Assembly: GCA_001828855.1 (NCBI GenBank)
Contig: MHZT01000027.1
Span: 1 to 64,000, forward strand
Direction of reading: 5' to 3'
DNA from: Rhodobacterales bacterium RIFCSPHIGHO2_02_FULL_62_130
GTDB taxonomy: Bacteria; Pseudomonadota; Alphaproteobacteria; Rhodobacterales; Rhodobacteraceae
DNA length: 64,000 nucleotides
The notes beneath the pieces were generated by a model that was not told the origin of the DNA, searched no databases, and saw only the letters and a program-made list of their open reading frames with translations. A program made the position numbers and the translations under genes. This document shows, one piece after another, positions 9,353-26,292 of the stretch (the first letter of the stretch is position 1; every line of letters starts with the position of its first letter).

Positions 9353-10154
9353 CCTTCACCGCCCGCAGGAATTGCTGCGTCCGCTCTTTCTGCGGATTGG
9401 TAAAGAACTGCTCCGGCGCGGCCTGTTCTTCGATCTTGCCTTTGTAGAAAAAGCAGATGCGATCCGAAATGTCGCGGGCAAAGCCCATCTGATGCGTCAC
9501 CATCAGCATGGTCAGGTCATGTTCTGCCACCAGCTTGCGGATGACTTCGGTCACCTCGCCGATCACTTCGGGGTCAAGCGCCGAGGTCACCTCGTCAAAC
9601 AGCATGATGCGGGGCCGCATGGCCAGCGCGCGGGCAATCGCCACGCGCTGCTGCTGGCCACCTGACAGGCGCGAGGGGTGCTGATCCTTCTTTTCGATCA
9701 TGCCGACCATCGCCAGCAATTCTTCGGCGCGCGCCCGCGCTTCTGCCTTGGATAGGCCCAGCACCTGCACCGGCCCCTCCATGCAGTTTTGCAGCGCTGT
9801 CATGTGCGGGAAAAGGTTGAAATGCTGAAAACACATGCCGATCGAGGCCCGCATGCGGCGCAGATGCGCCTCGTCAGCCGGGACAAGACGGCCACCGCGC
9901 GCCATGTGGGTCAAGGGTTTGCCATCAATATAGATGACGCCGCCGTTGATGGTTTCCAAGGTCATGAGCATGCGCAAGACGGTGGTCTTGCCCGACCCTG
10001 AGGGGCCGATGACCGACACCATCTCGCCGCGCTGGATGTCAAGGTTGAGGTTGTCCAGCACAACCAGCGAGCCATAGCTTTTGGTGACGTTCATGAAACG
10101 CACCATCGGGCAGTCGCCCTTGGGCAGTTCCAGCGGATAGGCAGAAAGATCCAT
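9342..10154 (-). CDS. ehuA: Ectoine/hydroxyectoine ABC importer ATP-binding protein EhuA
   Basis: 270 residues, polar amino acid (PAAT) type ABC ATPase. Walker A GPSGSGKT, Q-loop region CFQHFNLFPH, signature LSGGQQQR, Walker B IMLFDEVTSALD and the H-loop VTHQMGFA are all intact. It energises the membrane pair EhuC/EhuD encoded immediately upstream. Its 3' end overlaps eutB by 11 bases, coupling transport and catabolism in one transcript. Confidence 0.9.
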   Translation of the reverse strand: MDLSAYPLELPKGDCPMVRFMNVTKSYGSLVVLDNLNLDIQRGEMVSVIGPSGSGKTTVLRMLMTLETINGGVIYIDGKPLTHMARGGRLVPADEAHLRRMRASIGMCFQHFNLFPHMTALQNCMEGPVQVLGLSKAEARARAEELLAMVGMIEKKDQHPSRLSGGQQQRVAIARALAMRPRIMLFDEVTSALDPEVIGEVTEVIRKLVAEHDLTMLMVTHQMGFARDISDRICFFYKGKIEEQAAPEQFFTNPQKERTQQFLRAVKDAD

Positions 10155-16810: not shown

Positions 16811-17443
16811 TTACAGATCGATTCCTTCAGACAAGGACAGCGCGTCGTCCAGGTCGACTCCAAGATAGCGAACAGTGCTGTCCATCTTGGTATGCCCAAG
16901 CAAAAGTTGAACAGCGCGCAGGTTGCCTGTCTTCTTGTAAATCTGGGCAACCTTGGTGCGCCGCATCGAATGGGTGCCATACGCGCTCGGTTCAAGACCG
17001 ATCGAGAGAACCCAGTCGCGCATGATCCGCGCATATTGGCGGGTGGACAGATGCGGGCTGGCATGGACTCGGCTGGGCCAAAGATATTCGCAACCGATCA
17101 TTTCGGGATCCTTGATCCAACGCTCCACCGAAAGTCGCGTGGTTTCGGTGATCTCGAAGCGTACAGGCTTGCGAGTCTTGCTTTGCGTCACCGAGGCGCG
17201 TTCTTTGACGCGGCCTGCGGCGTAAACATCGTTCACCTTCAGGCAGACCAGATCGCAACCCCTGAGCTTGCAATCGATGGCCATGTTGAACAGCGCAAGG
17301 TCGCGCTTATTGTCGGCCATTTCGAGCCGGACACGGATGGACCAAACATGTTTGGGCAACAGCGGGCGCTTCTGGCCGACAATGCGGCCCTTGTTCCAAG
17401 GCGCGCGTGTGGGACGAAGGGCGGGAAGTGTTTCGATAGGCAT
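16811..17443 (-). CDS. Short tyrosine recombinase/phage-type integrase
   Basis: 210 residues from the ATG at 17443, chosen for the AGGAG eight bases upstream. The catalytic set of a tyrosine recombinase is visible: Arg in DCKLRGCDL, HSMRR (His-x-x-Arg), LLGHTKMD and the nucleophile Tyr in TVRYLG. It lacks the N-terminal core-binding domain of long phage integrases. A decayed copy lies at 47080-47436, so this family has been mobile in the genome. It sits next to a truncated gene (17643-18575), consistent with a rearrangement boundary. No att site could be identified. Confidence 0.85.
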   Translation of the reverse strand: MPIETLPALRPTRAPWNKGRIVGQKRPLLPKHVWSIRVRLEMADNKRDLALFNMAIDCKLRGCDLVCLKVNDVYAAGRVKERASVTQSKTRKPVRFEITETTRLSVERWIKDPEMIGCEYLWPSRVHASPHLSTRQYARIMRDWVLSIGLEPSAYGTHSMRRTKVAQIYKKTGNLRAVQLLLGHTKMDSTVRYLGVDLDDALSLSEGIDL

Positions 17444-17642
17444 GGCTTGTCTCCTGCCCGCCAAACCCGCCACGTCCTCGGCTTTGCCGACATGGCATTG
17501 TAGCATCGACCGCAGTTCGAGTGCCGATAAATCGTAGCGGGCGGAAAGCCGTCGTTCATAGAAGTTATGCGCAGCACACCCAACTGACCGATTGGCGCCC
17601 CTCAGGGGTGCTACATTTCGCTTCAGTCGTCCCGGAATAAAT

Positions 17643-18575
17643 TCAAAGCGAGACTTCTTGGGGCCCTGCAAGGCCATAGACCTCATCGAGGTCATACCGC
17701 GATGCGCGAAAGGATTTTCCGTCTTCGGCGGCGCGGGCGCGCTGAATGATGACAAGCGCCTCATCCAGCCGCCCCGCGTCGATCAGGCGGCGCGCGACGT
17801 CCGGGGCGATGGTGCCATAGGTCAACTGCTCGGCAGAATATCGCGCCATAAAAGCATCCACATCGCCCTGAAGATCGGCGATGTCGGCAAGGATGATCGA
17901 GGCGGTGCTTTGCCTTTGACGGCGGGCGAGATCCATGGGTGAGGTCGACAGCCCGAACTGGCGAAACTGCGCAATCTCCTGCGGCGTCGGGGCCGCTGCT
18001 GCCCATGCTTCAGTGATCTGCTTCAGATGCGTAAGCCCCTCCACCCCCAGCGCCTCGGCCATGGCCGGAATGATCCCGTCAAATTCGCCATAGCCCGCCT
18101 CTGCCACGGCCTCGACGATGCGCTCTGCCAGAAGGTTGGGCTTGATGGTCAGCCTTGGGGAAATTGTGGCGAGAAGCTCCACCGCGCTGCGCAGCACATC
18201 ACCTACCGCGCCGTTGCTGTCATCGGTCCGGGCATGGATTGACGGAGCCAGCTGCAGGAAAGACCACAGCAGATCAAAGGCTTCATCCGCGTCAAGCGGG
18301 GCGATGCCGGTTTCGATCATGGCGACCAGACCGGTCAGGTCTTTGATAAAAGCCTTCTGTTTGCGCCAATCGACGTAGCTCGTGGACCGGCGCAGCAAGG
18401 CGAAACGCTTTCGCAGATCGGCGGCAATCTCCTTCGGCCCCTGCGCGGCGCTGAGTTCCATCCGCGCCCGCCGTTGAAGCGCCGCACTGCCCTGAACAAG
18501 GTCCATGACCAGGGCGGCAAGCCGGTCAGCCCCGAGTTTTTCCAGATTTTCCGCGTTCAGGGTCTTCTTCGCCAT
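17643..18575 (-). pseudogene. DUF6880-type protein, C-terminally truncated
   Basis: 310 residues from the ATG at 18575 (MAKKTLNAENLEKLG). The sequence resembles DUF6880-family proteins: helical, with RARMELSAAQGP, YVDWRKQKAF and ADLQGDVDAFMARY segments. As I recall, family members are clearly longer and continue with an Ala/Glu-rich helical region. Here the frame stops shortly after DLDEVYGLAG, next to the recombinase gene, so the 3' end appears lost. Function unknown. It may still be expressed; it lies downstream of hipA on the same strand. Confidence 0.6.
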
Positions 18576-18736
18576 GGTACTTCTGATCTCGATACGGTGG
18601 GCTGAACCCTGCTTGACCAACCTGGGCGAGGCAAGCAGGGGCCAGTCGCACTGCTTTGCTTCACAGGTGCGACTGCCAGATGCATTTGTGGCCGAAGATA
18701 CGACGTTTCCCGTTTTTTCTGGCCAGAGCGATAATT

Positions 18737-20032
18737 CTATAAAGGAGCGTCCAGCACCGGCAGTTCAGCCGGCGCCCCCTCGAAGACGTAAGAATTCAGG
18801 AAGGCCCGGCCAGCCAGAAGGTTCTGCAGATCGATGGAAATTCCCGCCTCCGTTGCCACGCGCCGGAAATTCGCACGGATCGACTGGATCTGACCTTTTG
18901 CAATCGAAACCGCCTCGTCCGTGCGCAAACCGAACTGCCCGGCTCCCGCAATCGCTGTTGCGATCAGCGCCCGACGGTCATCACCATTCACAACCATCGC
19001 CTGGTTCGCCTCGCGCCCCAATCTGGGGCGGGGATCAATGTCATAGGCCGGGGTCAGCCGTACCGCCGCGCCATCCCAGAAACAGGCATGGTTGCGGGCG
19101 TGATCGTCGGTGTTTCCCACCAGAATGTTGAACAGCATCCGCGACCAAAGCTCGCGCTGATCGCCCTTGGGATCGGCGGCGCGATGGCGCAGCGCTTCGG
19201 CCACGGCAGGATAGCTGGCATAGCGCGCGGCGTTTTCCTCGAGGCCCTGCAGAGTAAGTGACGAGACCATGGCTTTGCGCAGGAAACCATTGCCGTTCCA
19301 GACGCGGTCGAACCGCTCCACCAGAAGAATATCCTTGCCCTCGGCTTTGGTCAGTTCCACATGCGCCACATCGAGGCCAGCGAGTTTCGCCAGCCGCATG
19401 GCAAGAAACTCGCCCTGCACCACGTTATGGGTGTCCCGCGATGCGGAGAATTTGGCGATCAGCTTGCGATGCCCGTCGATGACCTGCGCCTTGGGCCGCG
19501 CCCCACCGATCGAGGTGCCATGCCGCAACGCCTCTTCTAGGTCGGGCGAGAGCGGAACACCCTGTTCGACGGCATCCGCGGCATGCAGCAGGTCCTGCAG
19601 GCGCGAGTCCTTTTGCATCCGCGGCACATAGTCCGTCGCAGAGGTCTGAAAATCCAAGGCACCGATGCGGTCTGACCCGGAAAGCAGGAGATAGTTCAAC
19701 TCGTCCAGGTCGCCGGTATCGACATCCCGACCGCGCCGCTGAAACTGACGGTTCAGCACAACCCGGCGCCCCCATTGATCGGGGGCGGCATCGCGCAGGG
19801 CGCCTGCGATGACATGCGGTGCCTCTGGCACGATCACGCTGTCCACCAAGGGCAACTCCGGAAGCCAAACCGGTTTGGCGTTCGGTCTGGCCAGATAGCT
19901 TTTGCCGTAAGTGAAGCGGTTGATGCCATCGACCAGATCGATCCGGCCGCAGACAACCGGTTCGACCGCCTCAGGGAGCCAGATCCAGGTGAAGGCAGAC
20001 AGCGCGGGCTTGAGGAGGTCGGATGGCTGCAT
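18737..20032 (-). CDS. hipA: HipA-family serine/threonine kinase toxin
   Basis: 431 residues. HipA kinase features in order: an N-terminal subdomain with LLSGSDRIGALDF, a flexible P-loop GTSIGGARPKA (172-182), the ATP-contacting Lys194 in IAKFS, LLVERFDR (236-243), the catalytic loop NILVGNTDDHARNH (about 302-315) and the metal-binding YDIDP (330-334). All expected residues look intact. HipA kinases phosphorylate aminoacyl-tRNA synthetases or related targets and are neutralised by HipB. It lies 28 bases after the HTH antitoxin gene, the normal hipBA order. Confidence 0.9.
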   Translation of the reverse strand: MQPSDLLKPALSAFTWIWLPEAVEPVVCGRIDLVDGINRFTYGKSYLARPNAKPVWLPELPLVDSVIVPEAPHVIAGALRDAAPDQWGRRVVLNRQFQRRGRDVDTGDLDELNYLLLSGSDRIGALDFQTSATDYVPRMQKDSRLQDLLHAADAVEQGVPLSPDLEEALRHGTSIGGARPKAQVIDGHRKLIAKFSASRDTHNVVQGEFLAMRLAKLAGLDVAHVELTKAEGKDILLVERFDRVWNGNGFLRKAMVSSLTLQGLEENAARYASYPAVAEALRHRAADPKGDQRELWSRMLFNILVGNTDDHARNHACFWDGAAVRLTPAYDIDPRPRLGREANQAMVVNGDDRRALIATAIAGAGQFGLRTDEAVSIAKGQIQSIRANFRRVATEAGISIDLQNLLAGRAFLNSYVFEGAPAELPVLDAPL

Positions 20033-20059
20033 GGCGGTTCCGGTTCAGAATGGGAAAAA

Positions 20060-20395
20060 TCAGAAATCGTTGTCGGGTTTGGCGTGGCTGGCCTGGAAGG
20101 CCCGCCGTGGCAACAGTGTGTTCAGCTGCTGCTTCTGATCCAAGAGCGCGCCGAGCTGGCCCGCCGGGACATCAAACAACGGGATGCCAAGAACGACCGC
20201 GGCCTCGAAGGCCGCCCCGATGGAAGTGCCCGGTTCGCCCGCCTCCATCCGCTGCACTACCCCGCGCGAGACGCCGATACGCTCGCCGAGTTCGGCCGCG
20301 GTCATGCCCCGCTGCATCCGCGCAGCCCGGATCATTGCTGCGAAAATCCCAAGGGCATCGCGGGTAGGGGCCGATATCGTCTGGACTTTCTTCAT
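20060..20395 (-). CDS. hipB: HipB-like XRE-family antitoxin
   Basis: About 111 residues from the ATG at 20395; a six-residue longer start at 20413 is possible. XRE helix-turn-helix: MIRAARMQRGMTAAELGERI, then GVSRGVVQRMEAG. It is encoded directly before hipA. The C-terminal tail is longer than in E. coli HipB. It should bind HipA and the inverted repeat upstream (20486-20528) to repress its own operon. Confidence 0.85.
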   Translation of the reverse strand: MKKVQTISAPTRDALGIFAAMIRAARMQRGMTAAELGERIGVSRGVVQRMEAGEPGTSIGAAFEAAVVLGIPLFDVPAGQLGALLDQKQQLNTLLPRRAFQASHAKPDNDF

Positions 20396-20485
20396 GATGT
20401 GGATCCATGGCATGAACCCGTGCGGAGGGGTCTTGCCTTTGTAGGTGCAGGATTGCAGCTGCTCAACAAGAATTCCCTGTCATGG

Positions 20486-20528
20486 CTTATTTATAGGTCT
20501 CATATTTTAATTATGATCCATAAATAGA
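20486..20528. promoter_or_regulatory. AT-rich inverted repeat upstream of hipBA
   Basis: CTTATTTATAGG (20486-20497) is mirrored by CCATAAATAGA (20518-20528) in a notably AT-rich stretch about 90 bases before hipB. The position and symmetry fit a HipB operator; binding is inferred. Confidence 0.5.
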
Positions 20529-20656
20529 CCGAAAGTGTCGAGCGGGACGACCGGATCTGGCATCGCATACCCAAGTCTGGGTGTTCGCCACCGTCGGCCG
20601 GCCTTGAGCCAGACCCCTCAGACCAACACCATTTCCGCGTAATACGCGAAAAAAGA

Positions 20657-20685
20657 TTTGACGACTCGGGTTTGCCCACTTATCC
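20657..20685 (+). promoter_or_regulatory. Candidate promoter of the unknown gene at 20714
   Basis: TTGACG (20657-20662) is followed after 17 bases by TATCCG. The -35 box is good and the -10 box weak. A GGAG ribosome-binding site precedes the ATG at 20714. Confidence 0.3.
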
Positions 20686-20713
20686 GTATTTTGCACGATA
20701 AACGGAGATTGCT

Positions 20714-21370
20714 ATGGCGACGCGTGGTGAGATGGTGAGCATGCTGGCAGACATTTTCGGCTTGCCCGTCACGGCGGTGGATGTCGCGGACCGTGCGTTG
20801 TCTGAGGCCGGCCTTCGGACCAAGTCGAGCCGCGGCAGGTCCGCAACGCAAATGTCGGGTGATGACGTGGTCAGCGTTGCAATTGCCTTGGCTGGGAACT
20901 GGGGGGTTAAGGCCGCAGCATCGATGGTCGCACAACTGGTCGCACTGATCTTGTCTGACGGGCGCATGGAGCCAATTGCGGATAACGATGATGACAACAG
21001 GGACAAGGAACCGGCAGTCGCAGTCATCAAGAACCTGAGCAAAAAAGAGATCCTGTCTGCTCCGCTTTTGGTCCCGTACCCGCGGAATATCTTGCAGATG
21101 AAAGAGAGCTTTGGCGCGTCCTTCGCAGAAATCCTGCAAGTGTTAAATTCCGAAAACGCCAGCAAATTTCGGGCGACAACAGTCACCATGATCCCCGACT
21201 TCCCCGGCGCATCCATCGAGTTCGCTTATCGTAGCCATTGGTTCACTATCCGCTTCGGCAACGGCATCGATGACGTGCTCAGTGACAATCTGGACCACTG
21301 CGAGGGTTACACGAAGATCGTCCTGCGGCACCGCCGGCTGGTTCGGCTGGCCGAAATTCTCAAAGCTTGA
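20714..21370 (+). CDS. Unknown protein with possible N-terminal DNA-binding region
   Basis: 218 residues, not recognised. The first about 65 residues (EMVSMLADIFGLPVTAVD, then SSRGRSATQMSGDD) look like a small helical, possibly DNA-binding domain of the type seen in phage-related alphaproteobacterial proteins. The C-terminal half is mixed alpha/beta (RATTVTMIPDFPGASIEFAY). It has its own GGAG ribosome-binding site and runs toward the tns operon, ending 565 bases before tnsA. It could be cargo of that element or an independent island gene. Confidence 0.55.
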   Translation: MATRGEMVSMLADIFGLPVTAVDVADRALSEAGLRTKSSRGRSATQMSGDDVVSVAIALAGNWGVKAAASMVAQLVALILSDGRMEPIADNDDDNRDKEPAVAVIKNLSKKEILSAPLLVPYPRNILQMKESFGASFAEILQVLNSENASKFRATTVTMIPDFPGASIEFAYRSHWFTIRFGNGIDDVLSDNLDHCEGYTKIVLRHRRLVRLAEILKA

Positions 21371-21390
21371 CCAACTTGGGCAACCGAATC

Positions 21391-21592
21391 GCCTCAAAAA
21401 AGAGAGCTCTTCGGCGAACAAAGCGGATCATGCCAAAACAATCCCCCAACTTATCCACCGCAAATTCGATCTTGACTCAAGAAAGTGGCCCAATCTCCAT
21501 GAATCACAAAAAGTGTGAAAAAGTTCGGGAAATCGACGAAATCGGGGGCGTTCAGCCTGATTTGGCTCGTCGGGCGGCCACTTTCTTGAGTC
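21391..21592. repeat. Candidate transposase-binding repeats and 17-bp inverted repeat upstream of tnsA
   Basis: GACTCAAGAAAGTGGCC at 21474-21490 is repeated perfectly in inverse orientation at 21576-21592, 85 bases apart. A degenerate forward copy, GCCTCAAAAAAGAGAG, is at 21391-21406. A small hairpin TCACA-AAAAG-TGTGA lies between the arms (21504-21518). The shared CTCAA(G/A)AAAG core and the place before tnsA suggest TnsB-type sites of one transposon end. A structured RNA is the alternative. Confidence 0.45.
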
Positions 21593-21896
21593 TGGGAATT
21601 TCTTTTCAGGTCCCGAATCAGCGGACTCGACAGCCTCGTGGCATTCCCGCAAAGGGCGGCAACCGAATAGCCCGCTCGGCTCTCTGCGGTGGCAAACTGA
21701 AAACCTTGCCTCGCTGATGAGCCGATCGGGAACCGCCTGCAAGGAAACACTGACCATGCCGATCCCGACCTGAACCGCCGCAAATAATCCCGGCAAGATC
21801 ACCGACCCAATGAACCGAGACAGCCTCCAGACCGAAGTCACCAGCTCCCACCGCCAGCACTGACACGGACCGAGGCCTTCCTCACCGAAACAACGC
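21593..21896. other. Non-coding leader before tnsA
   Basis: About 300 bases with no supported gene on either strand. It probably carries the tnsA promoter; no clear -35/-10 pair was recognised. Confidence 0.35.
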
Positions 21897-21923
21897 AAAA
21901 AAACCCTGGGGCCCGTCCCAGGG
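21897..21923 (-). terminator. Intrinsic terminator on the minus strand before tnsA
   Basis: The stem CCCTGGG (21904-21910) pairs with CCCAGGG (21917-21923), loop GCCCGT. On the minus strand the hairpin is followed by seven T (seven A at 21897-21903 on the plus strand), a textbook rho-independent terminator. No minus-strand gene ends here, so it may stop readthrough or an antisense transcript. The hairpin also sits just before the tnsA ribosome-binding site. Confidence 0.55.
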
Positions 21924-21935
21924 CATGGAGACATC

Positions 21936-22772
21936 ATGTCTGAACGCAAGGACAAGAACAGGCGAACCTCGAAGGCAAGGGGGCATCGGCGCCCGATGCC
22001 GATCATCACGCCGGAAACCTGGGGCCGCGACCATATGGCCGATTTCCGCGCGATGGCAGAGGAACCGAAAACTCCCGAGGAAGCGAAAGCGCTTGCCATT
22101 CCGCCGATCCACGGCGTCCGGCCCTTCGCCGGCCATCGTAATCCTTTGACCCGTAGCAACACTGCACGCCGCGTGTCTTTCACCGCAGCCACGCCCGCAA
22201 CCGAAGGGGTGCCTGAACTGTACCACTTCGAAAGCGAGGCTGAGTCCGCGGTGGCTCTCGAAGCGCTGATCAATCCCTCTCTGCACAGGCTCGAGGTTCA
22301 ACTGCCGCCGGTCATGTATATGTGCCGTCGTGCCAAGAAGGTGCTTCCGCATCATTTCGATCTGCGCCTCACCTTCCGTGATGGACATCGTCGCGCCGTT
22401 TTCGTGCGCAACGGCTGGAGCCTTTCGCAGCGCAAAACCCAAGATGAAATCGAAGACATCTTCATGGCGATCCCGCCCGATTTCGCAGATGATGCTGTCG
22501 TCGTGAACGCTGACGACTATACCCGTGCTTACCGCGACAACCTGCGCCGGATCTGGTACCTGACCCGCAAGTCTGACGCAGAAGCCGATGCCCATGTCGA
22601 GGCAGTTGCCAAGCATGGCAATTTCTGGCTGCTGCGCGACTTGATCTCCCAATGTGATCTGGCCCCGGCGCGCGCCTGGCAAAGTGCCATGCGGTTGATC
22701 GGGCGAGGAGTTCTTCTCGCGAATTGGCACGCTGTGATCAATGTTCACTCCCGGGTGAGGTTGAACGGATGA
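21936..22772 (+). CDS. tnsA: TnsA-like endonuclease subunit of a Tn7-like transposase
   Basis: 278 residues, first gene of a tnsA-tnsB-tnsC operon. The middle part (about 95-160) resembles the TnsA endonuclease core: an acidic FESEAES (98-104), then LPHHFDLRLTFRDG with Asp142. The third motif, usually E/Q-x-K, reads VFVRNG (155-160): Phe in place of Glu/Gln and Arg in place of Lys. The C-terminal part (from about 215) looks like the TnsA winged-helix domain. In Tn7 this subunit cuts the 5' ends so that the element moves cut-and-paste. The altered motif may mean reduced or different activity. Assignment rests on position and weak motif similarity. Confidence 0.6.
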   Translation: MSERKDKNRRTSKARGHRRPMPIITPETWGRDHMADFRAMAEEPKTPEEAKALAIPPIHGVRPFAGHRNPLTRSNTARRVSFTAATPATEGVPELYHFESEAESAVALEALINPSLHRLEVQLPPVMYMCRRAKKVLPHHFDLRLTFRDGHRRAVFVRNGWSLSQRKTQDEIEDIFMAIPPDFADDAVVVNADDYTRAYRDNLRRIWYLTRKSDAEADAHVEAVAKHGNFWLLRDLISQCDLAPARAWQSAMRLIGRGVLLANWHAVINVHSRVRLNG

Positions 22773-24952
22773 ACGCCAAACCTTTGTACAAGATCCCGAC
22801 GGGTTCCAAACTCGTCATCGAGGGGCGCTCCTGGTTGGTAACTGGCAAGGAGCCGGATGGATATTCGGTGGAGGGCAACGAGGATGGTGAATGCCTCGTG
22901 CTGCCCTTTGTTCGGGTCGACGAAGCGATCCGCGAAGGTCGTTGCGATGTCACCAGGCCGATCGATGATGAAAAGCGCAAAGCGCTGCTGGCGCAAACCG
23001 GTGGTTTCGAGTTTTTCGAGCAACTGCCTGAAAAGCAGAAGGAACTGGTTCGTTTTCGCCTGCCGGCGGTACTCGCTGTTCTGCAACTTGAGGCGGAAGG
23101 GCGTAAGCTCACACATCGGAACATGAGCAAGGACCTGGTCACCGGGGCGCAAGGTCCGGTCCTGCGAGACCTGAAGAAGCGGGCGGCAGAGATCAGCCAA
23201 GGTGTTGATCTCCCCGGCAAGCAGCGGGGTGGCAAGGTGGTCGCTACCTTCACCTGGCCGCAGGGCCGGAGCCTGCGCCGCTATGCTGACCTGTTCGTCA
23301 AGTTTGACCGGAATCCTGTGGTTTTGGCAGACAAGGATCATTGCAAGCGCCCTTGTCCGGTGGACAAGGGGTGGCTCTGCGACACGCAGGAACAGTTCAT
23401 CTCCTACGTCATTAACTGCTGGCTCGATACGAAGAAACCGAAAATTGCCCCACTTGTGAGGCTCGCACAGACCCAGTTTCACGTTCCGCCAAGCGCGATT
23501 GCACAGAACTTCCGCTTTCCCTCAATCGTGACCATCAGGACGCGGATCAAGGGCCTGCCCGAGAACGTGAAAGTGGTTGGTCGCAAGGGTGAACGCCAAG
23601 CTGCCAACCTCAAAGGTGCCGGCTCGACCGACGTTCGCGCATTGATGTACGGCGAGCGGGCTGAGAAGGACCAAAACTATCTGTCGATCTTCACCGATGG
23701 CAAGGGCCTGCTGCGGGTTCGGGAGCTGGACCCCAAGACGACACCGCCTGATCTTGAAGAAAACGAGGTCGTTCGGCTTTGGCTGTTTTACATGCTGGAT
23801 GTTGCCACGCGCCTGCCTCTCGCATGGATCCTTTCTCCCACCGCGGATGCAGATCACAGCCACGCGCTGCTTCGCATGGCAACACGTGACAAAACCAAAG
23901 AAAAAGTTCGGTATGGCTGCAAACGGGACCCTGCGCCGCCAGCTGGCCTTCTGCTGACTTCCGCAGACAACGGAAGCGCTACCCGCAATGGCTCCGTCTA
24001 TGCCAGCCAACTTGGCAGCAATGTCATGGTCCAAACGAGCCGCACGTACCATGCAACGGACAAACCTTATGTCGAGAGCGGCTTCGGTCCTCTGCAATGG
24101 CAGGTATTGAACTTCTATCCTGGCTATACCGGAAGCCGCCCCGGCGAACTGGAAGGTTATGACCCGAAGTGGTCCGCGGAGGTAACCCATGATGAGATCT
24201 ACGGGGTCATCACGCGCTATTTGATCGATGAACACCCGTTCCGGGAGCATCAAGGCACCGGCATGTTCCGCGCCACTCCCTGGCAAAAATTCGAAGAGAT
24301 CCAGAAGTACTATGGTGGCATCGAGCCCCCGGATCCCATGACCCGTTGCATGCATCTGGGCGTCAAGCGCGAGGCCAGCACCACCTCCGAAGGGGTTAAG
24401 GTCTTTAACCTGCCGTTCAACTCCACCGAATTGCAGCGATTTGCAGCCGGGCAGTCCAAGAAAGTTACTGTCCACCTCGACCCTGACTTCCCTCAAGAAG
24501 TTTATATCACGGCGGAGGGTATGGCAGACGTAATGAAGGCCAAGCTCACGATGACGGTGTTCAATGACCTCAATCTTGAGGAGATTCTCGACCTCATTGA
24601 AGCGGTGGTCAAATTCAACCCAAAGCTGCGCGAATTGCACAGCCACCACTTTAAAGAAGCCCTCGGACGGCGAGCCCGAGAGTCCGGCTTCTTCCCGGAC
24701 TCTCGGGCTCCGTCCTCGTACGACAAGATTACGCAAATGCAAAAGAAGGCCGACGGATTGAGCCACGTCGAGCTCTGTCCCGATGCGCGCCGCGGCCCGA
24801 CAGCCTTCCCCGGCACCGTCATGGACAGGTCGGGAAGCGCTCCCGTTTATCGCGTCGGCGCCTCGGAGGCACCCCCTAAATTGGCGGAGAAATCCAGCGT
24901 CGCCAAGGCCAAGACTATTTCGTTCACCCCTCTCAAGGACAGCAAGCTGTGA
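22769..24952 (+). CDS. tnsB: TnsB/TniA-like DDE transposase
   Basis: 727 residues from the ATG at 22769, which overlaps the tnsA stop (ATGA). The order is an N-terminal DNA-binding region, an integrase (rve) core and a C-terminal Mu-transposase-like beta region. DDE candidates: Asp310 in SIFTDGKG or a nearby Asp, Asp400 in TSADNGSAT and Glu436 in DKPYVESG; FYMLDVATRLPLAW is a typical core strand. This is the strand-transfer subunit that recognises the element ends. The 727-residue length is in the TnsB/TniA range. The core motifs look intact. Confidence 0.88.
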   Translation: MNAKPLYKIPTGSKLVIEGRSWLVTGKEPDGYSVEGNEDGECLVLPFVRVDEAIREGRCDVTRPIDDEKRKALLAQTGGFEFFEQLPEKQKELVRFRLPAVLAVLQLEAEGRKLTHRNMSKDLVTGAQGPVLRDLKKRAAEISQGVDLPGKQRGGKVVATFTWPQGRSLRRYADLFVKFDRNPVVLADKDHCKRPCPVDKGWLCDTQEQFISYVINCWLDTKKPKIAPLVRLAQTQFHVPPSAIAQNFRFPSIVTIRTRIKGLPENVKVVGRKGERQAANLKGAGSTDVRALMYGERAEKDQNYLSIFTDGKGLLRVRELDPKTTPPDLEENEVVRLWLFYMLDVATRLPLAWILSPTADADHSHALLRMATRDKTKEKVRYGCKRDPAPPAGLLLTSADNGSATRNGSVYASQLGSNVMVQTSRTYHATDKPYVESGFGPLQWQVLNFYPGYTGSRPGELEGYDPKWSAEVTHDEIYGVITRYLIDEHPFREHQGTGMFRATPWQKFEEIQKYYGGIEPPDPMTRCMHLGVKREASTTSEGVKVFNLPFNSTELQRFAAGQSKKVTVHLDPDFPQEVYITAEGMADVMKAKLTMTVFNDLNLEEILDLIEAVVKFNPKLRELHSHHFKEALGRRARESGFFPDSRAPSSYDKITQMQKKADGLSHVELCPDARRGPTAFPGTVMDRSGSAPVYRVGASEAPPKLAEKSSVAKAKTISFTPLKDSKL

Positions 24953-25938
24953 ACCCGTTCATCATTCCCGAAGTCGTCAATCTGAGCACGGACTTTTCCA
25001 AGCGGCACTATCCTCTGAACCGTAGCAAGAGCTTGGAGGGCTCGTTTGCTTTTCTCTTCAGCCAACACCTTGGCGGCTTGCGCAGCGGAGGGCGCTTTGA
25101 AACCGAAAGCCTGATGGTCACTGGCCCCAGCGGCAGCGGCAAGACCAAGGAAATCAGTGATATGATCAAGCGTTTCAACCAGAGCGAGGCCAAACTCCCC
25201 GACGGAAAACCTGCCCTGTTCATCGAGTGCATTTTGGATGCGAAAGGTAGCTGGAAGGATCTGGGTAAGACCATCCTCCGGGCTATGGGCTATCCAATTT
25301 CCCAAAGCTCGCGCGCAACCCGCACGGAAATCTGGGCGCGCGTTGCATATCAGGCCCAGGAACGGGGCATCGTTGGCATCCACTTTGATGAAGCCCAGCA
25401 CATTCTGCGCGGCAAGTCGGAAACCGAACGCCTGGCAACTTTGGATGCGTTCAAAACTCTTATGAAACTGCCCGATTGGCCGCTGATGTTGATTTTGTCC
25501 GGTGTTCCGGAACTGAGCGACTACGTGAAGGAGGAACCGCAGTTGTTCCGGCTCATGACCTGCGTCAGTTTCAGCGATATCGACCTGTTCATGCGTGACG
25601 ACAACGAGTTGCCGCCGGACTATACCGTGATCCACGAAATTGTTGGCAGCTATGCACTGACTGCGGGGCTTTCTGTTGAGACCACCATTCAGACCCAAGG
25701 CTTCTATCATTGCCTTGCCACTGCTGCCGCGTTTCGCTGGGGACTTCTGATTGACTTGGCTTTCGGGGCAGCAACCCATGCCAAGCTGACCGGGAAGGGT
25801 TTCGTCTCGGCGGAGGATTTCGTCGAAGCTTGGGTTGGAAAAACCGGCATGAACCGAGCGGTGACTCCTTTCACCCATGTGGGCTATCAGACGATGTTCC
25901 GGCCGGAAAAACCGTTCCAAGCTGCAATTCCTGGATGA
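24949..25938 (+). CDS. tnsC: TnsC/TniB-like AAA+ regulator of transposition
   Basis: 329 residues with a GTG start inside the tnsB stop (GTGA overlap). AAA+ motifs: Walker A GPSGSGKT (59-66), Walker B IVGIHFDEAQHI (141-152) and sensor-like LILSGVPEL (181-189). TnsC/TniB proteins polymerise on target DNA and link the transposase to a targeting subunit (TnsD/TniQ). No TniQ-like gene follows; the operon ends at a strong terminator 35 bases downstream. Confidence 0.85.
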   Translation: MNPFIIPEVVNLSTDFSKRHYPLNRSKSLEGSFAFLFSQHLGGLRSGGRFETESLMVTGPSGSGKTKEISDMIKRFNQSEAKLPDGKPALFIECILDAKGSWKDLGKTILRAMGYPISQSSRATRTEIWARVAYQAQERGIVGIHFDEAQHILRGKSETERLATLDAFKTLMKLPDWPLMLILSGVPELSDYVKEEPQLFRLMTCVSFSDIDLFMRDDNELPPDYTVIHEIVGSYALTAGLSVETTIQTQGFYHCLATAAAFRWGLLIDLAFGAATHAKLTGKGFVSAEDFVEAWVGKTGMNRAVTPFTHVGYQTMFRPEKPFQAAIPG

Positions 25939-25973
25939 GGCCGATCTGAACTCAATATTCTGCTTCAGTAATG

Positions 25974-25999
25974 AACCCGCACCTCAGTGCGGGTTTTTT
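25974..25999 (+). terminator. Rho-independent terminator of the tns operon
   Basis: Nine-base-pair stem AACCCGCAC / GTGCGGGTT with loop CTCA, followed by a T run to 25999. It lies 35 bases after the tnsC stop. Confidence 0.85.
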
Positions 26000-26068
26000 C
26001 TTGCGTTGAAGTTTGCGCCCCAGTAGTTGGTCGGCAAATGATGTGCAGACAACCTCCTGAGCAGGCAT

Positions 26069-26196
26069 TTGCTTTCTTGCGCAGGATATTGCTTTCGCGC
26101 AAAGGGCGACACCAGATAAGCAACTGATAAGTAACGGTTTATTATCGCATCGAATCAGTCTGGGATGCTCTTGCGCACTCTCATGCTTTTTTTGCC
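26069..26196. repeat. Candidate transposase-binding repeats downstream of tnsC
   Basis: Four related motifs lie in one orientation: TTGCTTTCTTGCGCAGG (26069-26085), TTGCTTTCGCGCAAAGG (26089-26105), TGCTCTTGCGCA (26166-26177) and TGCTTTTTTTGCC (26184-26196). Their reverse complements carry the GCAAGAAAG-like core also seen before tnsA (CTCAAGAAAG), so both flanks point inward. This fits the second end of the same element, but the exact termini and target duplication could not be fixed. Confidence 0.4.
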
Positions 26197-26292
26197 TCGG
26201 AGATCTGTCTGGACAGGCAAATTTTGTCCAAACGGGGCAAGGCTGTCCATTGAACCGGTGATTTTTATCCACTCTTGAAAAATCAATGACTT

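Follow-up and report, generated by a model that had tools for sequence, protein, structure and literature searches.

The tnsA, tnsB and tnsC genes described here very probably belong to a Tn7-like transposon that has been truncated on its left and of which the right half survives, at positions 17675-26197 (8,523 bp) of the window, that is, of the whole 64,000-nucleotide stretch of contig C27 from Rhodobacterales bacterium RIFCSPHIGHO2_02_FULL_62_130 that was analysed. The parts that would remain of the element are its right end, tnsABC, an accessory gene for a protein of 218 residues, hipBA as cargo and a fragment of a DUF6880 gene. In the intact form the far side would carry a divergently oriented tniQ/tnsD gene, as it does in relatives; in the completely delimited one, from the genome termed G225, this gene is situated at the left end next to a tRNA gene, and a 5-bp duplication bounds the element. 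The original prediction had suggested that the same genes could form a minimal unit some 5 kb long. This reading has to be given up, as the remnant extends over 17675-26197 at the least and lacks its left part, and the delimited relative measures 38.7 kb.

The transposition genes and the right end

The three genes follow each other on the forward strand, with tnsA at 21936-22772, tnsB running from 22769 (or 22724) to 24952 and tnsC at 24949-25938. If the ATG at 22769 is the start of tnsB, which is the start used by most of the aligned relatives, the tnsA/tnsB and tnsB/tnsC junctions are each an overlap of 4 bases. All three frames are open in the list of open reading frames. The only Pfam match above the cut-off among their products is the AAA/TniB domain of TnsC (PF13401, PF05621), with the Mu-type C-terminus of TnsB matched below it. 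Profiles built from the aligned relatives, when compared with a structure database, match TnsB to PseTnsAB (E 1.1e-22) and TnsC to VchTnsC (E 2.5e-6), the latter also to the TnsC of Tn7. TnsB is a DDE transposase whose triad, assigned by motif as D359, D415 and E451 (counted from the start at 22724), is invariant in 11/11 aligned sequences, and TnsC is an AAA+ ATPase with Walker A and B motifs in which K65, D147 and E148 are invariant in 12/12. With TnsA, neither the Pfam search nor the sequence-profile search gave a significant match. Its AlphaFold2 model (mean pLDDT 81.8) returns just four Foldseek matches at E <= 0.001, all of which are Tn7 TnsA or chains of the Tn7 transpososome, the best being Tn7 TnsA with E 6.2e-9, at TM-scores that are low (0.36-0.48 by query length). 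By its modelled fold the first reading frame encodes a TnsA-type endonuclease. The reading frames, the profile matches and the TnsA fold therefore agree on the three overlapping TnsA-, TnsB- and TnsC-like genes that had been predicted, and the proposed comparison with known families, made by profile for TnsB and TnsC and by Foldseek for TnsA, confirms them as Tn7-like transposition genes.

Downstream of tnsC, a hairpin with a run of T at 25974-25999 on the forward strand resembles an intrinsic terminator; it is read from the sequence, begins 35 bases past the gene as originally described, and has similar counterparts, recognised by eye, 3' of tnsC in relatives. Beyond it lie three 21-base copies of a repeat, family D2, on the same strand, which represent putative TnsB-type sites at 26055-26075, 26075-26095 (also found by pattern match) and 26169-26189. 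The third of these, together with the right terminus, makes up 26169-26197, so that the last base of the element becomes 26197 instead of the 26196 given earlier. The CTTTCTTGCG string on this side is the junction where two TnsB-type sites abut. The spacing is that of the relatives, in which the three sites stand about +110, +130 and +226 from tnsC. In a scan with a 15-base pattern allowing up to 3 mismatches, at least two outward sites were found in 39/49 related loci, as opposed to 12/49 for inward ones and an expectation of 0.7 from shuffling, although the pattern was built partly on loci later scanned and the 39 include some off-position matches; one of the 50 loci (L150) was dropped for having too little sequence past tnsC. 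The outermost site of the window and the 8 bases that follow it match a left end beside tniQ on contig C33 of the same genome, in an alignment of 38 bases with a score of 25.5 against 13 for the best of 20 shuffles. As judged from these sequence comparisons, the right end with its three TnsB-type sites is real.

The five bases past the terminus, CGGAG at 26198-26202, are a putative target-site duplication, present as the right copy only. In the comparison with empty sites that had been proposed, no empty site was found: the right flank gave only short matches in the own genome and 60 others, and the plasmid collection yielded no empty site either.

The broken left side and the copy on contig C33

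To the left of tnsA the window carries the gene for the 218-residue protein (20714-21370, forward strand; 60% identical in the C33 copy) and then, on the reverse strand, three genes with homologues on C33. These are a HipB-like helix-turn-helix gene (20060-20413; PF01381; 87% identical) and a HipA-like gene (18737-20032; PF07804, E 1.6e-47; 84% identical), which are regarded as cargo, and the 5' part of a DUF6880 gene (17675-18620), which corresponds to residues 2-303 of a 481-residue homologue and forms the left limit of the remnant. At the DNA level the two copies are 75-81% identical over 17675-18575 and 18770-24977. The CAAGAAAG-type repeats at 21474-21592, which lie upstream of tnsA as a perfect inverted pair of 17 bp (21474-21490 and 21576-21592), had been put forward as the left end of the element; because the similarity to C33 passes straight through them, they are internal. 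Of the inward-pointing flanking repeats first proposed as element ends, the right-hand set thus stands, with the three-site spacing of the relatives, and the left-hand set does not.

The similarity to C33 (locus L037) and that to a further contig, C13 (L039), both begin exactly at 17675, inside the DUF6880 gene. The gene is longer elsewhere, with 481 residues on C33 and 478 aligned residues in the C13 reading frame, and within the own genome the missing part is found on these two contigs only. We therefore regard this point as the break in the window element. A left end elsewhere in the window was sought and rejected. With a 19-base pattern and up to 2 mismatches there is no match to the left, and with the 15-base pattern at the same tolerance there are seven single matches left of tnsA, the best of them (one mismatch) at 9962 and 17968, none of which has a second site nearby or a terminal TTTCTCTG-like sequence. 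No left end was recognised in the window as an inverted partner of the right end, such as is present on C33 and in G225. As neither an empty site of its own nor a left end was found, the original left limit of the element can only be inferred.

A tyrosine recombinase (integrase) gene at 16811-17764 adjoins the break. It was considered as a part of the conserved unit and discarded, its relatives being situated elsewhere, near other elements, and its relative on C33 lying elsewhere on that contig. These relatives, which are 68-82% identical, occur on C33 and, in the genomes G177, G192 and G214, up to about 11 kb from tniQ.

The C33 copy is itself incomplete. Its TnsB is 74% identical to that of the window, and the similarity of its tnsC ends 29 bases into the gene, where there may be an IS21-like end; the remainder of this tnsC was searched for and not found. 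What C33 does hold is two convergent tniQ genes (PF06527; reading frames of 614 and 721 residues), whose left ends face each other with 5 bases between them. The window right-end site differs from both of these left-end sites by one base in 19, and CGGAG, the pentamer past the window right end, is also the one that precedes one of the C33 left ends in the orientation of that element, a coincidence expected by chance at an estimated rate of roughly 2 in 1024. The right end of the window and this left end may once have been in one insertion, or the match may be due to chance. Beside tniQ on C33 (L038:9238-10984) there is also a gene for a Cap15 effector (PF18153, E 1e-31), and the adjoining gene, which has no Pfam match, may by eye be its nucleotidyltransferase; the pair is likely to be a CBASS defence cargo.

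TniQ/TnsD in this genome and in related elements

Where, then, does the TniQ/TnsD protein of such elements lie? There are six PF06527 matches in the own genome, two on C33 and one each on C34, C38, C46 and C49, so that the proposed search for a TniQ elsewhere in the genome was productive. On C27 there is none, which extends the earlier statement that no TniQ is seen near tnsABC to the whole contig, and because of this the window copy is filed only as a truncated derivative. Of 244 genomes, 43 have a relative of TnsB, counting the genome of the window itself. Among the 18 genomes searched, those with the best TnsB matches of the 42 other matching genomes, 16 have a TniQ, the two without being G094 and G204. 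In a set of 30 genomes reached through named loci, the hosts of 31 of the 50 related loci with 34 places where tnsC occurs, 28 have one, G322 and G324 being those without. The two sets share several genomes, and G305 has the same coordinates as G225.

The arrangement of the genes is characteristic. At 22 of the 34 tnsC places the contig carries, no more than 50 kb upstream of tnsC, a TniQ/TnsD gene in divergent orientation, and the tniQ-tnsC pairs within 50 kb number 24 divergent versus 0 on the same strand, counts that do not represent independent events, given the kinship among the places and the overlap of the genome sets. The nearest upstream tniQ is 3.8-44.7 kb from tnsC, with tniQ directly beside tnsA in some related loci and behind cargo in others. 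Twelve of the 34 places have no upstream TniQ, and 11 of these are on contigs that stop short of 50 kb upstream. The exception is G315:C1, which has at least 50 kb of contig upstream and no TniQ; this one may also be a truncated copy, since at its locus, L157, tnsA is not seen and tnsB is only partial. A search of the G051 contig over its first 32 kb gave no TniQ.

The most informative relative is that of Tritonibacter scottomollicae (G225, locus L145), which is a complete element of 38,733 bp with two TniQ genes. The original prediction had named a tniQ gene within a larger tnsABC-bearing element as evidence against its own reading, and relatives do contain such a gene. The right end and the tniQ-side left end of the G225 element share a terminal repeat that is identical at 28/28 bases, both ends are flanked by a GAACA duplication, and the left end adjoins a tRNA-Arg(CCT) gene. 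The joined flanks align without the insert in 2 of the other 17 members of the genus (76% and 82% identity), and a part of this empty-site flank resembles an older left end, so that more than one insertion may have occurred there. The element resembles the window copy in its proteins (TnsC 57% and TnsB 52% identical) and in its three-site right end, and differs from it in having both ends intact, its full 38,733 bp and the two TniQ genes.

The tniQ-side ends also adjoin tRNA genes elsewhere, with tRNA-Arg(CCT) in G158 and tRNA-Arg(TCT) in G145. A repeat shared between the right end and the tniQ side at a score of at least 14 was found in 3/9 pairings (window/C33, G145 and G225b), and none was detected within 1.5 kb beyond tniQ in the other six (G214, G177, G159, G192, G016 and the first tniQ of G225). 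The left end of G159 is present in L130, where the 5-mers at the two ends differ and the right end abuts another left end, and in G145 the duplication AGATT is obtained only when the ends are moved inward by one base. Some of the elements appear to be arranged in tandem arrays, in that in G302:C34, G303:C21 and G328:C3 tniQ lies 2-3 kb beyond the tnsC of another element or a right end directly joins the next left end; L055:12190-12250 belongs with these.

The region upstream of tnsA holds recurring accessory genes. Searches of Pfam, NCBIfam and PADLOC gave no match for the 218-residue protein. It has relatives in 6 others of the 244 genomes and in 6 plasmid records, and with 9 of the 12 places that hold a relative examined, it is encoded upstream of tnsA in both copies of the own genome and at 6 of these 9 other loci. 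The conserved part of the family is N-terminal and comprises about 83 residues (L203, L204, L205, L206, L209 and L211). All 6 loci have tnsA-B-C-tniQ operons, and because tniQ occurs alongside it there, the protein is regarded as an accessory and not as a stand-in for TniQ. In 11 of the 50 related loci a stand-alone Zn-ribbon protein of about 190 residues is encoded about 0.5 kb upstream of tnsA on the same strand (for instance at L047:6737-7324, L048:7108-7677 and L052:7536-8105), where it occupies the position of the 218-residue protein. The three that were scanned are of the IS1595 type (PF12760), and a role as an accessory or targeting factor is possible.

Function, alternative readings and meaning

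By analogy with Tn7, TniQ/TnsD would pick the target, TnsC would bridge it to the TnsAB transposase, and TnsAB would cut and join at the TnsB-bound ends. The rearrangement at 17675 would have removed the left end and, presumably with it, the tniQ gene of the window copy, and with both lost the element would be unable to transpose as a unit by its own means. TnsABC from the window could nevertheless serve elements whose ends match, for instance the tniQ-side left ends of C33, and mobilisation in trans is possible on account of the near-identical end sites and the CGGAG match.

That the tnsABC of C27 and the tniQ genes and left ends of C33 are jointly mobile in trans, with neither copy complete, is an unlikely reading, even if the two are complementary, C33 having two tniQ genes with left ends and a cut tnsC and C27 having a tnsC and no tniQ, and even if they have the close end sites and the pentamer in common; C27 and C33 are separate contigs of a 53-contig assembly, and common descent alone also predicts shared ends. 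A more elaborate version, in which a two-contig and perhaps two-replicon system combines the window TnsABC with the TniQ and left ends of C33 in trans and is helped by the 218-residue protein, which recurs upstream of tnsA in more than one Tn7-like group, seems improbable. Very little speaks for an element that does without TniQ and lets TnsC or the 218-residue protein select its targets. The lack of a TniQ on C27 and the recurrence of that protein upstream of tnsA would fit it, but tniQ is also in the operon at all six of the other loci concerned, the relatives of the window tnsABC mostly carry tniQ further left, and the truncation of the window element is visible.

The genes might also have decayed and be inactive, which is doubtful but has something in its favour, namely the missing left end and the state of TnsA. 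Residues 156-158 of TnsA read FVR, at what we take, from an alignment by eye, to be the place of the QxK motif of Tn7 TnsA, with residue 158 at the position of the catalytic lysine. In the alignment of 13 sequences this residue is Arg in 12 and Lys in one, and because Arg is common to these 12 it does not indicate decay of the window copy; altered second-strand cleavage is possible. Against decay stand the three open frames and the catalytic residues of TnsB and TnsC, which are conserved. Among the options originally offered, a truncated relic is thus the one supported, a distant TniQ borrowed from C33 is possible, and targeting by TnsC alone has no positive support.

As a truncated Tn7-like element, the window copy can be set beside known systems. 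It has TnsA, TnsB, TnsC and multiple right-end TnsB-type sites in common with Tn7-like elements that use TniQ/TnsD (Faure et al. 2023, PMC10293859; Benler et al. 2021, PMC8649781), and differs from them in having neither left end nor tniQ. Its relatives resemble them further in the TniQ/TnsD gene and, where ends are resolved, in the short target duplication and the insertion next to a tRNA gene, tRNA genes being mentioned as safe insertion sites by Benler et al. With the far side of the element taken into account, the data are in line with Faure et al. (PMC10293859) at most places. The divergent orientation of tniQ and tnsABC, often with cargo between them, sets the group of the window apart from other Tn7-like elements; searches of the literature did not find this Rhodobacterales arrangement, which proves no absence. 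The Type I-F3 CAST systems (Tn6677, PseCAST) provide the best structure-database sequence matches for TnsB and TnsC of the window; a difference lies in the two tniQ reading frames beside matching ends on C33, which have 614 and 721 residues.

With this finding, one seeming exception to the dependence of Tn7-like elements on TniQ/TnsD disappears, and a route by which such exceptions can arise becomes visible. A search confined to the vicinity of tnsC overlooks the target selector, because in this group tniQ is 4-45 kb away, beyond the cargo. The end motif, the tRNA-Arg attachment site and the right-end spacing are aids for delimiting such elements, and the accessory genes that recur upstream of tnsA are leads.
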